From the NCBI GenBank assembly GCA_016183935.1, contig JACPDR010000016.1, positions 1-64,000 on the forward strand: 64,000 bases of DNA, given 5' to 3'. The notes beneath the pieces are model-generated. The model was not told the DNA's origin. It searched no databases and saw nothing but the letters and a program-made list of their open reading frames with translations. Of this stretch, positions 44,847 to 50,038 are shown one piece after another; the stretch's first letter is position 1; each line of letters opens with the position of its first letter. A program made the position numbers and the translations under genes. This DNA comes from Caulobacterales bacterium (GTDB lineage Bacteria > Pseudomonadota > Alphaproteobacteria > Caulobacterales > Caulobacteraceae).

Positions 44847-46547
44847 ATGCTCATGAGCCGCGCGCTCGCCCCGACCGAACCGGCTGCGGCTCCTCCCGAG
44901 GCCGCGCCGAGCCCGCGCGTGGACTCGCCCGTCGCGGTCAACAGCGCCGTGGCCTTCTTCCGCGAGCCGCTGGCCCCGATCTTCACCGCCATCGCCGTTC
45001 TGGTGCTTGTGGTGCTGGCGATCCAGTTCGCCCGCACCGCCGGCCTCGTCGCGGGCCTGTGGGGCGCCGGCGGGGTCGCCGTCGCGGTCTGGCTCAGGAA
45101 CGCGCGCGGTCCTTCGTACGACCTCTGTTTCGCGGGCCTGCTGGCCACCGGCATCACTGCCGGAGAGCTGCTGGCCGGCAATTCCTACGGCCTCACCGCG
45201 CTGTTCACCATCACCAACATGATGGAGATCGGGGGCGCGGTCCTGCTGGCCCGAAGATTCGCGCCGACGCTCAACGTCGCCACCGTCGACGGGGCCTGCC
45301 GCTTCCTGCTCAGCGCCGCCGTGATCGCACCCATTCCCGCGGCCGTCATTACAGCCGGGGGGCTGTACCTGATCCAGGGCGCGGACATCCTTCACGCCTT
45401 CCAGACCTGGTGGTTCGGTCACGCTCTGGGCATCGCCGTCATCGGCGCCTTCGGCCTTTCGCTCAGCCGCCGTCACCTGGCCATGCTGCGCAATCCCTTC
45501 CGTGCGGCCGAGGCGGCTATCCTTTTGGCCCTGCTCGCCGCGGTCTGCGTCGGCGTCTTCTTCCAGTCGCAGGTGCAGGTCGGCTTCATCGTCGTGCCGG
45601 TGCTGATCCTGTTCGCGGCCCGGTTCCGCGTACTCGGCGTCGCGACGGCGCTGGTGCTCGTCGCAATCACGGCCGTCGGGGGCGCCATGCTCGGCCGCGG
45701 CCCGTTCATATCGGCGGGCCCGGACCTGGCCGACCAGGCGTTGCTGGCCCAGTTGATGGTGCTGCTCGGCTGCATGCCCATCCTGCTGGTCGCCTCGCTT
45801 CTGGAGGAGCGCGACCGCCTGTCCGACCGCGCCAAGGCCGGCCAGCTGCGCGCCGAGCTGGCCTCCGAAGCCAAGTCGCGCCTGCTCGCCAACGTCGCCC
45901 ATGAGATCAAGAGCCCGGTCGGCGGCGTCATCGGCATCGGCGAACTCTGGAAGACCGGCCAGTTGGGCGCCGTCACCCCGACCCAGGCGGAGATGGCGGA
46001 GATGCTGGTCAAGACCGCGCGGCAGGTCGAGGCCCTGGCCCACGATCTGCTGGACGTGGCCCGCGCCGAGTCCGGGGCCGTCAAGGTCGAGCTGCGCCCC
46101 ACCGACGTCCCCGGGGTGCTCGAGGACGTGCGCCGCGCCACCGCCCTGCGTCCGGAGGCCGAGGGCATCGCCATGCATGTGGTCAGCGAGGGCGACGGCC
46201 TGATCGCCCTGGCCGACTCCCAGCGGCTGACCCAGGTGATCGCCAACCTGGCCTCCAACGCGGTCAAGTACGGCGGGGCCGGAGGCTTGGTGATCTTCCG
46301 GGCCAGCAAGATTTACGACGGCGTCCGCATCGAGGTCATCGACCGCGGTCCCGGCCTGTCGACCGAGAAGCAGGCCCAGCTGTTCGAGCCGTTCAACCGA
46401 CTCGGGCTGGAGCGCTCGACGGTGGAGGGCCACGGCATCGGCCTGGCCCTCGCCAAGCGGCTGGTCGAACTGCAGGGTGGGACCATCGGCGTCACCTCCA
46501 CTCCCGGCGAAGGCGCGGCCTTCTGGGTCGAACTCCCCGCCGCCTGA
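44847..46547 (+). CDS. MASE1-like membrane sensor histidine kinase
   Basis: 566 aa. A long N-terminal membrane domain with about eight helices (42-315) of the MASE1 type, coiled linker (LEERDRLSDRAKAGQLRAEL), HisKA with His352 in NVAHEIKSPVGGVIGIGELW, and HATPase with N-box NLASNAVKYGG, DRGPGLS and GHGIGLALAKRLVE. No response regulator adjacent. Lies 108 bp upstream of the bd oxidase genes in the same direction, so a role in their control is possible. Confidence 0.9.
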   Translation: MLMSRALAPTEPAAAPPEAAPSPRVDSPVAVNSAVAFFREPLAPIFTAIAVLVLVVLAIQFARTAGLVAGLWGAGGVAVAVWLRNARGPSYDLCFAGLLATGITAGELLAGNSYGLTALFTITNMMEIGGAVLLARRFAPTLNVATVDGACRFLLSAAVIAPIPAAVITAGGLYLIQGADILHAFQTWWFGHALGIAVIGAFGLSLSRRHLAMLRNPFRAAEAAILLALLAAVCVGVFFQSQVQVGFIVVPVLILFAARFRVLGVATALVLVAITAVGGAMLGRGPFISAGPDLADQALLAQLMVLLGCMPILLVASLLEERDRLSDRAKAGQLRAELASEAKSRLLANVAHEIKSPVGGVIGIGELWKTGQLGAVTPTQAEMAEMLVKTARQVEALAHDLLDVARAESGAVKVELRPTDVPGVLEDVRRATALRPEAEGIAMHVVSEGDGLIALADSQRLTQVIANLASNAVKYGGAGGLVIFRASKIYDGVRIEVIDRGPGLSTEKQAQLFEPFNRLGLERSTVEGHGIGLALAKRLVELQGGTIGVTSTPGEGAAFWVELPAA

Positions 46548-46655: not shown

Positions 46656-48050
46656 GTGGAATTCGACGCACTGCTGCTCTCGCGGCTCCAGTTCGCCTTC
46701 ACCATCGCTTTTCACATCCTGTTCCCGGCCTTCACCATCGGCTTGGCGGCCTTCCTCGCCGTGCTGGAGGGGCTGTGGCTCGCAACCAACCGCGAGGCCT
46801 TCAAGGCTCTCTACCTGTTCTGGGTGAGGATCTTCGCCATCAGCTTCGGCATGGGCGTCGTCTCCGGCATCGTGCTCAGCTATCAGTTCGGCACCAACTG
46901 GTCCGAGTTCATCCGCCTGACCGGCGGCGTCATCGGTCCCATGCTGGCCTATGAGGTGCTGACCGCCTTTTTCCTCGAGGCGTCCTTCCTGGGCGTCATG
47001 CTGTTCGGCTGGAGAAAGGTCGGGCCGCGACTGCATTTCCTCGCCACCGTTCTGGTCGCCGTCGGCACCACCATCTCGGCCTTCTGGATCCTCTCCGCCA
47101 ACAGCTGGATGCAGACGCCGCAGGGCTTTGAAATCCTGGCGGACGGCCGCTTCGTAGCGACCAGCTTCGCCGAGGTGATCTTCAACCCAAGCTTCCCCTC
47201 GCGCCTCGTCCACATGCTGATGGCCGCCTTCCTGACCACGGCCCTGGTGGTCGGCGGCGCCTCGGCCTGGCAACTGCTGCGCGACCGCGAACAGCGCGAA
47301 AGCCGGATCGCCCTGACCATGGCCGTGGGTCTGCTGGCCGTGGTCGCTCCGCTGCAGCTGCTCGCGGGGCACTGGTCGGGTGAGGTGGCCAAGGAGCACC
47401 AGCCGCAGAAACTGGCCGCCATCGAGGCCTACTGGGAAACCCAGGCCAATCATCCGCTGGTCCTGTTCGCCATCCCCGACCGCGCTGCGCAGGCCAACCA
47501 TTTCGAGGTCTCGATACCCGGCGCCGGGATCATCGTCGCGCCGCCGGACGAGGTCGTGACGGGTCTCAAGGCCGTCGCGGCGGAGGACCAGCCGCCCGTC
47601 TTCCTGGTCTTCTGGGCCTTCCGGGTCATGGCCGGGCTCGGCTTTCTGATGATCGGCCTCGGTCTCTGGGGCGCATGGCTGGCGTGGCGCAAGCGGTTGA
47701 CCGACAACCGGCTGTTCCTGCGCTTCGCCGTCGCCATGGGGCCGGCCGGGTTCGTCGCCGTGATCGCCGGCTGGATCGTCACCGAGGTCGGTCGTCAGCC
47801 ATGGGTCGTCTACGGTGTTCTGCGCACCGCCGACGCGGTGTCGGCGGTGACGACCGGCTCGGTCGCCACCTCGCTGCTGATCTACATCACCGTCTACGCC
47901 GTGGTCTTCGTGGCCGGGGCCATCTACATCCTGCGCCTGCTCGATGAAGGCCCCGCGGCTGGTCGGGTCGAGCCGTCGCCGGAGGGGCTGCGCGCGCCCG
48001 GCACCCCGCTCGCCGCCGCACCCGACGAAGCGCCGGGAGACCCGAAATGA
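46656..48050 (+). CDS. cydA: Cytochrome bd-type (cyanide-insensitive) quinol oxidase subunit I
   Basis: 464 aa, GTG start. Heme-ligand His20 in FTIAFHILFPAFTIGLAAF, core helices WVRIFAISFGMGVVSGIVLSYQFGTNW, and GRQPWVVYGVLRT near the end, the usual heme motif. Short Q-loop and length indicate the CIO (cioA) class rather than E. coli CydA. ATGA overlap with cydB. Confidence 0.95.
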   Translation: MEFDALLLSRLQFAFTIAFHILFPAFTIGLAAFLAVLEGLWLATNREAFKALYLFWVRIFAISFGMGVVSGIVLSYQFGTNWSEFIRLTGGVIGPMLAYEVLTAFFLEASFLGVMLFGWRKVGPRLHFLATVLVAVGTTISAFWILSANSWMQTPQGFEILADGRFVATSFAEVIFNPSFPSRLVHMLMAAFLTTALVVGGASAWQLLRDREQRESRIALTMAVGLLAVVAPLQLLAGHWSGEVAKEHQPQKLAAIEAYWETQANHPLVLFAIPDRAAQANHFEVSIPGAGIIVAPPDEVVTGLKAVAAEDQPPVFLVFWAFRVMAGLGFLMIGLGLWGAWLAWRKRLTDNRLFLRFAVAMGPAGFVAVIAGWIVTEVGRQPWVVYGVLRTADAVSAVTTGSVATSLLIYITVYAVVFVAGAIYILRLLDEGPAAGRVEPSPEGLRAPGTPLAAAPDEAPGDPK

Positions 48051-49072
48051 GCCTCGATCTTCCTCTCATCTGGGCCGGGCTGATCGCCGTCGCCGTGCTG
48101 CTCTATGTGCTGCTGGACGGCTTCGACCTCGGTGTCGGCATCCTGTTTCCGTTTTCGCACTCGCGCGAGGACCGGGACGTGATGATGAACACCGTAGCCC
48201 CGGTCTGGGACGGCAACGAGACCTGGCTGGTGCTGGGCGGCGGCGGTCTGCTGGCGGCCTTTCCGCTGGCCTATTCCATCCTCATGCCGGCCTTCTACCT
48301 GCCTGTGGTGATGATGCTGGCGGGGCTGATTCTGCGCGGGGTCGCCTTCGAGTTCCGGTTCCGGGGCCAGCGCCGCGGACGGCCCTTCTGGACCGCCATG
48401 TTCGGCCTCGGCTCCATTCTCGCCGCCTTCGCCCAGGGCCTGATCCTCGGCGGCTTCATCCAGGGCGTGGAAGTCGCCGACAGCCGCTTCGCCGGCGGGA
48501 CCTTCGACTGGTTCACGCCCTACACCCTGCTGGTCGCGGTTGGTCTGGTCTGCGGCTACGCCCTGCTCGGCGCGACCTGGCTGATGCTGAAGACCACCGA
48601 CGCCCTGCATGGCGACGCCCGCCGCTGGGCCCTGTTCGCGGGCGTGCTGACGGCGCTGTTCATGCTGGGGGTCAGCCTGTCGACGCTGGTGGTGCATCCG
48701 CTCGTCGCCGCACGTTGGGGCTGGACCGGAGCCGGGTTCGATCTCGCCCGCTTCCTGCCGCTCAGCGTCATTCCGCTGATCGGTCTGGCCGGGCTGGCGA
48801 CGGTCGCGCTGGGGGTTCTCCGGTCCTCACATGTCTGGCCGTTCGCCGGCGCCGTGGTGGTCTTCCTGTCGGGCTACGCCGGCCTGGCGACGGGCTTCTT
48901 CCCTTATGTGGCGCCCTACGCCGTGGACTTCCGCGAGGGCGCCGCGCCTGACAACGCCCTGGCCCTGATGCTGGCCGGCACGGCCTTCATCCTCCCGCTG
49001 ATCCTCGGCTACACGGCGTGGGTCTACTGGGTGTTCCGGGGCAAGGTGACGCCGGAGGCCGGCTATCATTAG
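48047..49072 (+). CDS. cydB: Cytochrome bd-type quinol oxidase subunit II
   Basis: 341 aa, about eight transmembrane helices. Start LDLPLIWAGLIAVAVLLYVLLDGFDLGVGIL, the family signature, then VAPVWDGNETWLVLGGGGLLAAFP and FRFRGQRRGRPFWTAMFGLGS. Overlaps cydA (ATGA). A small third gene begins inside its stop codon. Confidence 0.95.
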   Translation: MSLDLPLIWAGLIAVAVLLYVLLDGFDLGVGILFPFSHSREDRDVMMNTVAPVWDGNETWLVLGGGGLLAAFPLAYSILMPAFYLPVVMMLAGLILRGVAFEFRFRGQRRGRPFWTAMFGLGSILAAFAQGLILGGFIQGVEVADSRFAGGTFDWFTPYTLLVAVGLVCGYALLGATWLMLKTTDALHGDARRWALFAGVLTALFMLGVSLSTLVVHPLVAARWGWTGAGFDLARFLPLSVIPLIGLAGLATVALGVLRSSHVWPFAGAVVVFLSGYAGLATGFFPYVAPYAVDFREGAAPDNALALMLAGTAFILPLILGYTAWVYWVFRGKVTPEAGYH

Positions 49073-49214
49073 GATCGAACCGCCCCCGGGGCCGGACGAG
49101 GCGGCCGGGCCGCTGTGGAAGCGACTGGCCTGGTTCGCGGGCCTCGCCGTCGCCGCCTCCGCAGTCACCGCCGTCGTGGCCTATACGCTCAGGGCCTTGC
49201 CGTTCGCGGGTTGA
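49068..49214 (+). CDS. Small bd-oxidase subunit (CydX/DUF2474-like), ATT start
   Basis: 48 aa: acidic Pro-rich start, then PLWKRLAWFAGLAVAASAVT and VVAYTLR, a single helix with the PLWKR-x-WF pattern of DUF2474 proteins that sit after cydB. In frame, the only codon after a ribosome site is ATT (49068) overlapping the cydB stop as ATTAG; GGAGG lies 9 nt before it. No ATG, GTG or TTG fits. AUU is used by infC and pcnB in E. coli. Confidence 0.65.
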   Translation: MRIEPPPGPDEAAGPLWKRLAWFAGLAVAASAVTAVVAYTLRALPFAG

Positions 49215-49231: not shown

Positions 49232-50038
49232 ATGAAGAGAACCGTCCTGACAGCCGCCGCCCTCCTGCTCGCCGCCGTCCCCGGCGTGTCCAATGCCCAG
49301 ACGGCGCCGCAGGACCCGCCTGCCTCCGGCGCTTCGGCCAGCGACCTTACGCGCGACCTCAACAGCGGTCCGCCGACCATCGAGGAATATCTGGCGCGCC
49401 CGGTGACGCCGGCGCCGTCCGCGCCCGCTCCGACGCCCCGGGCCGCGGAGCCGGCTCCTGCCGCCCCGCCGTCCGCCACGACACCGGAATCACGGCCGTC
49501 CCGCGTGGTTGAGCCGGCCCCGAGGCCGCGGACGGCCCCCATAACGCCGCCTGAAAGCGCCGCGGGACGCCCCGCGACGCCCCGCCCGACCGCGCCCGTC
49601 CGCACGGAGCCGTCGCCGACCTCCGCGCCCGTCGCGCCGGCCGAGGCCCCGCCGCCGCCGTCCGTCCCCACCGTCACCGTGCTGGACTCCGCCGCCCGCG
49701 CCGCGCTGCCGTTCACCGTCGACCTGCCGTCCGGGTTTGAGATCGTCACCGGCCGGCCGGGTCCGGACTTCCGGATCTATACGATCCGGCGCGGCGGCCA
49801 GTCGTTCGCCATGATCTACGCCGGCCCGGCGTCCCAGTTTCCGATCTACAGCGGTCAGATGATCGAGGCGGGCGGTCGTGCTTCCGTGGTGTCGACCGAG
49901 AGCGGCGAGCGCCACGCCCGCGAACACCTGTTCCAGCGCCCTGACGCCCCGCGAGAAGTCCACGTCTGGACCATGAGCCTCGAGGGGGCCGACCGCGCCT
50001 TGGCCGAACGCATCGCCCAGTCGGTCGACGTCCGCTAG
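49232..50038 (+). CDS. Exported proline-rich hypothetical protein
   Basis: 268 aa. Signal peptide about 1-22 (ends SNA-QT). Residues about 45-150 are Pro/Ala/Thr-rich, likely extended; the C-terminal globular domain (about 155-268) contains PFTVDLPSGFEIVTGRPGPD and GERHAREHLFQRPDAPREVH. No domain recognised. Ribosome site AAGGTCGGGG is weak. Overlaps the convergent YkgJ gene by 4 bp. Confidence 0.75.
   Translation: MKRTVLTAAALLLAAVPGVSNAQTAPQDPPASGASASDLTRDLNSGPPTIEEYLARPVTPAPSAPAPTPRAAEPAPAAPPSATTPESRPSRVVEPAPRPRTAPITPPESAAGRPATPRPTAPVRTEPSPTSAPVAPAEAPPPPSVPTVTVLDSAARAALPFTVDLPSGFEIVTGRPGPDFRIYTIRRGGQSFAMIYAGPASQFPIYSGQMIEAGGRASVVSTESGERHAREHLFQRPDAPREVHVWTMSLEGADRALAERIAQSVDVR

Follow-up and report, generated by a model that had tools for sequence, protein, structure and literature searches.

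In Escherichia coli, infC and pcnB start at AUU, and the infC start serves IF3 feedback. These genes share with the start proposed for the locus described here an AUH codon kept by selection, but they are without an overlapping, conserved upstream frame that dictates the codon. In Staphylococcus aureus, the near-cognate starts of cvfC1 (AUU) and ccpN (AUA) are accompanied by an extended Shine-Dalgarno sequence, and the cvfC1 start, directed by this sequence, is conserved among staphylococci and mapped by Ribo-seq, according to the accessible part of PMC13009471. The present locus resembles both in that a strong Shine-Dalgarno sequence would direct a near-cognate start kept in related species, and cvfC1 likewise encodes a small protein. 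However, cvfC1 opens its operon and its start is mapped, whereas the candidate Brevundimonas codon lies inside the preceding gene and is made by the last codons of that gene. A conserved near-cognate start with a strong Shine-Dalgarno sequence is therefore already known; what is new is a putative start that sits within the final codons of the gene before it, together with a switch from ATG to Shine-Dalgarno sequence that is visible across relatives. Literature searches on DUF2474, CydZ, Brevundimonas and AUU/AUC starts, with subscription papers and preprints outside their scope, gave no report of such a case among the matches listed. As a caution, PMC13398362 in its accessible part concerns a long-standing annotation error over a rare start codon in Borrelia.

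Two further systems are close to this locus. DUF2474 is named CydZ, a small protein of cydAB operons, in PMC4325964 and is handled as a CydX-like subunit in PMC5322542 (both as far as their accessible text goes). CydZ and the small protein of the window are alike in the gene position directly 3' of cydB, the single hydrophobic helix, the conserved Trp at the helix start and the ribosome-binding site upstream. They differ in that the window protein scores under the Pfam cut-off and most sequences of its clade are without a canonical start; the accessible text of PMC4325964 does not mention non-AUG starts for CydZ. A CydA with a short Q-loop is a further criterion for CydZ systems. The second system is termination-reinitiation. 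According to the accessible part of PMC2268962, an excess of IF3 makes reinitiation less frequent, an effect that is weaker when a Shine-Dalgarno sequence is present, and it also inhibits non-canonical starts. The likeness lies in the overlap of start and stop, and within the same operon the TGA of cydA and the ATG of cydB also share bases (ATGA). The reporters in that study used AUG or a matched mutant initiator tRNA, whereas coupling at the present locus is putative.

The window is the whole stretch of DNA analysed, 64,000 nucleotides in length, and its source genome groups with Brevundimonas. The cydA gene encodes a protein of 464 aa, and cydB ends with GGC TAT CAT TAG (Table 1). In the +1 frame relative to cydB, a reading frame is open from 49050 to a stop ending at 49214 and encodes RRRPAIIRIEPPPGPDEAAGPLWKRLAWFAGLAVAASAVTAVVAYTLRALPFAG. 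A frame of 48 codons after cydB had been described in the initial annotation, and the stretch from ATT 49068 to 49214 indeed comprises 48 codons plus a stop. The other elements described there, a GGAGG 9 nt before this ATT and a base (49070) shared between the ATT and the cydB TAG, are found as well.

Table 1. Features of the cydAB operon and the small gene, with positions in the window.
Feature	Position	Strand	Remarks
cydA	46656..48050	+	GTG start per ORF list; Pfam Cyt_bd_oxida_I, E 2.8e-163
cydB	48047..49072	+	TAG at 49070-49072; Pfam Cyt_bd_oxida_II, E 6.7e-93
TGA in the frame of the small protein	49047..49049	+	blocks any start further 5'
Shine-Dalgarno sequence GGAGG	49054..49058	+	AGG (49056-49058) at the place of the ATG in relatives outside the clade
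ATC, likeliest candidate start codon	49065..49067	+	7 nt after GGAG; built from TAT|C of cydB
ATT, candidate start codon of the initial annotation	49068..49070	+	10 nt after GGAG; built from CAT|T of cydB
cydZ-like gene	49065..49214	+	49 codons from ATC or 48 from ATT, plus stop
Conserved PLWKRLAWF	49110..49136	+	frame translation; alignment A1

The small protein resembles CydZ (DUF2474), a protein with one helix. The sequence and alignment A1 give a single hydrophobic stretch after PLWKRLAWF, with WF invariant; the motif had been noted earlier as PLWKR-x-WF, and it is present, but with two residues (LA) rather than one in between. The earlier assignment to DUF2474/CydX-like proteins is supported by the aligned relatives: of the 19 sequences in A1, 17 match DUF2474 with E no higher than 1 (4.9e-6 for the best). 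The window protein itself matches PF10617 weakly, at 11.6-12.8 bits (E 0.13-0.3), under the curated cut-off of 26.6 bits. The label "CydZ-like" is used because the window protein scores under this cut-off while its relatives match. An NCBIfam search with the window protein and a comparison of profile A1 with solved structures (E up to 1) gave no match, and PF10617 found nothing in the source genome, a search that gave zero matches in the control genomes too and so does not speak for absence of the family. The protein would join CydAB as a subunit.

The 3' end of cydB was compared in 218 loci, which reduce to 173 distinct ends; the 118 with a cydB identity of at least 55% are counted, and the 55 loci below 55% are left out. 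One place of the family with an internal stop (G348) lies outside the set. In the cydB tree, 46 of these sequences form one Brevundimonas clade (SH-aLRT 94). Outside the clade, 71 of 72 have a canonical start in the same frame at most 26 nt 5' of the cydB stop: 62 include an ATG at -14, four have GTG at -14 and five have ATG at -17, -11 or -8. The exception, L191, has its nearest candidate, a GTG, at +19. Inside the clade, 38 of 46 lack a canonical start within 26 nt. Of these, 34 have none in the whole stretch from the upstream stop to the conserved part, and four have one that lies far upstream only (-44 to -167). The lack of ATG, GTG and TTG before PLWKR, reported earlier for the window, is thus confirmed and extends to these 34 sequences, so that an assembly error in a single genome does not account for it. 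Homologues with an ATG elsewhere, which the initial annotation had named as evidence against its start codon, do occur: they are found outside the clade, and 8 of the 46 sequences inside it have one (at -17, -20 or -23). No such ATG is present in the window, whose frame is closed by a stop 21 nt before the ATT. In four start-less sequences (the window, L007, L033 and L126) a stop precedes the cydB stop by 23-26 nt and makes any upstream start impossible.

The open frame is present in all 46 clade sequences, and in those without a canonical start it is under purifying selection. For 33 of them pN/pS is 0.46 in frame versus 1.68 and 1.42 in the shifted frames; for 45 clade sequences the values are 0.46 in frame and 1.48 and 1.43 shifted, although the absolute values may be swayed by high-GC codon bias. 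The 34th start-less sequence, L101, is excluded from both sets; its small frame continues past the usual end into the gene that follows, as though through an indel close to the 3' end.

At the place of the old ATG, the clade mostly carries GAG in the cydB frame, giving GGAG. This GGAG is found in all 38 clade sequences without a near canonical start versus four of the eight with one (Fisher inside the clade, p 0.0004, a test that ignores kinship). Among independent pairs inside the clade, the presence of ATG goes with the loss of GGAG in three of six and the opposite is found in none, which is not significant (p 0.25). Outside the clade, GGAG stands near the same place in 1 of 72 sequences. 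The ATG of Brevundimonas, 14 nt before the cydB stop in relatives, would have become part of the Shine-Dalgarno sequence through a change from GATG to GAGG. RNA folding of the region between the Shine-Dalgarno sequence and the start in the window gives z values of +1.0 and +1.1, about those of shuffled sequence, with no special structure. A GCCGG-AGG-CCGGC hairpin can be drawn in the window and carries no weight in the argument.

These data also bear on whether the small gene is translated at all in species without a canonical start, its sequence being either residual or of use to cydB alone. Such a loss of translation is given hardly any probability, since in-frame selection acts in 33 start-less sequences, most of the frame lies beyond cydB and a Shine-Dalgarno sequence was gained where the ATG was lost. 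The preferred explanation, with a rough probability of 0.77, is that of a real CydZ-like gene whose ATG was replaced by a Shine-Dalgarno sequence and whose initiation takes place at a downstream near-cognate AUH codon. As in the systems with a strong Shine-Dalgarno sequence, no canonical start exists in the open frame and an AUH codon lies at a working distance.

The near-cognate codons 5' of or within the PLWKR region of the window are ATC 49065, ATT 49068, ATC 49074 and CTG 49113. A shorter product from ATC 49074 or from CTG 49113 (the Leu codon of PLW) is extremely improbable: both are near-cognate in the window, but among start-less sequences the Leu codon reads CTG, CTA, CTC, CTT or TTG, and the place of ATC 49074 reads differently in other sequences.

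The two codons nearest to the cydB stop are fixed. The C-terminus of CydB in the clade is Tyr-His or Tyr-His-His, spelled TAT CAT (CAT) in 46 of 46, which in the +1 frame reads ATC (ATC) ATT. The terminal TAT (46 of 46), the CAT (46 of 46) and the extra CAT (30 of 30) show no change on the tree, while ten other Tyr columns changed 2-12 times and three other His columns 9-13 times. The clade has 51 two-fold T/C columns, and no others among them are all T. Outside the clade, where an ATG serves, TAT is found in 60 of 71 and CAT in 65 of 70. TAT-CAT is preferred there too, so a constraint on the Ile-Ile residues may explain part of the pattern. TAT is stricter in the clade than outside (p 0.003, ignoring kinship); for CAT the difference is not significant (p 0.16). 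As a control, the GAT codon that makes the ATG outside the clade is used in 97% at its own column, while in the gene body it makes up 12% of the Asp codons, so the codon-fixation test picks out the true start where one exists. An ATG at either the ATC or the ATT site would require an altered CydB end or stop.

The invariance of TAT-CAT-stop in the clade is also what a +1 frameshift at the end of cydB, yielding a CydB-CydZ fusion, would lead one to expect, and the small frame does lie at +1 relative to cydB, beginning where cydB stops. This fusion is nevertheless judged very improbable. The stop differs among sequences (TAG, TGA, TAA), with no fixed recoding stop, relatives outside the clade plainly use their own ATG, and the GGAG precedes the last sense codon by 8-11 nt, so that no close Shine-Dalgarno sequence is present; at the known prfB frameshift site it is much closer. 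Frameshifting, downstream starts and gene decay are all held unlikely on the evidence listed against each.

Within the AUH reading, the spacing from GGAG distinguishes the two candidates. Each of the 42 clade sequences that bear GGAG has ATC as its first Ile codon, 7 nt after GGAG, while the ATT at the stop follows at 10 nt in 15 of them and at 13 nt in 27. In a set of 412 ATG genes, drawn from about 0.77 Mb of the source genome, the gap from GGAG peaks at 5-8 nt (54 genes, 13 of them at 7 nt); a gap of 10 nt is found in 6 genes and one of 13 nt in 1. Because a gap of 7 nt is commoner in these genes than one of 10 or 13 nt, spacing suggests that ATC 49065 is the likelier start, by about 2 to 1 over ATT 49068 in the window and by more in the His-His sequences. 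The initial annotation had placed the start exactly at the ATT, sharing its last base with the cydB stop, and had proposed an alignment of cydB 3' ends as a check. The codon is indeed kept in 46 of 46, its gap of 10 nt is within the range of the genome, and infC in the genus apparently uses ATT with GGA 10 nt upstream. The ATT is nonetheless the worse-spaced candidate and an unlikely sole start: its gap of 13 nt in the 27 GGAG-bearing His-His sequences is one found in a single gene of the 412, and the TAT upstream would be superfluous yet is invariant. Both ATC and ATT may be in use.

Of 31 infC loci surveyed in the genus, 30 have ATT where the start is expected, with GGA 10 nt upstream; the search pattern did not match one locus (L272). 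Brevundimonas infC thus apparently starts at ATT, which would be the known infC AUU start. Across L219 (minus strand, near 2033) and L260-L289, infC reads AAGGA...ATT CGC CGT/AGA CC., with the ATT in 30 of the 31.

In many Brevundimonas, then, the small gene has probably lost its ATG and is probably read from a rare start inside the last letters of the preceding gene. Ribosomes would initiate a few bases 3' of the Shine-Dalgarno sequence at a near-cognate AUH codon supplied by the conserved Tyr-His-stop end of CydB. The simplest route would be that ribosomes which have just finished and terminated on cydB reinitiate over the Shine-Dalgarno sequence and the AUH codons, so that translation from the AUH codon would be coupled to cydB termination. 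Control of this start by IF3, raised in the initial annotation, is a reasonable idea, because excess IF3 is reported, in the accessible part of PMC2268962, to lower reinitiation and to inhibit non-canonical starts. A fuller proposal is put forward tentatively: in Brevundimonas with the oxidase, the AUG became a Shine-Dalgarno sequence and the start moved to an AUC (not the AUU) whose letters are set by the final codons of cydB, where AUG is impossible. Such a start may hold CydZ to a fraction of CydB and make its output depend on cydB termination and on IF3.

Reports of near-cognate starts that are conserved over many species are rare in bacteria, and a gene finder limited to ATG, GTG and TTG would overlook or shorten the genes concerned. 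In the present case, related genomes let the loss of the ATG, the gain of the Shine-Dalgarno sequence and the fixation of synonymous codons be read, and the approach offers a search route to further small genes that overlap a neighbour and start at AUH. The idea is directly testable, since the candidate starts can be told apart by two single changes in cydB, each of them synonymous.

Several minor observations accompany the locus. Directly 5' of cydA and on the same strand lies a MASE1 histidine kinase (44847-46547), which might regulate the oxidase. Directly 3' of the small gene, 49232-50038 encodes a proline-rich protein with a likely signal sequence and no Pfam or NCBIfam match. The metagenome-assembled genome L031 is titled Brevundimonas vancanneytii, its cydB falls among Caulobacter sequences and retains an ATG at -14, and it is probably mislabelled or mixed. 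Many low-identity cydB loci (e.g. L057, L064, L079, L129, L130) have, in the other frame, an ATG right where cydB stops. A second cydB type, about 50% identical, occurs in the genus (L127, L129, L130) and is followed by a DUF2474-like frame whose ATG overlaps the stop (TGATG).
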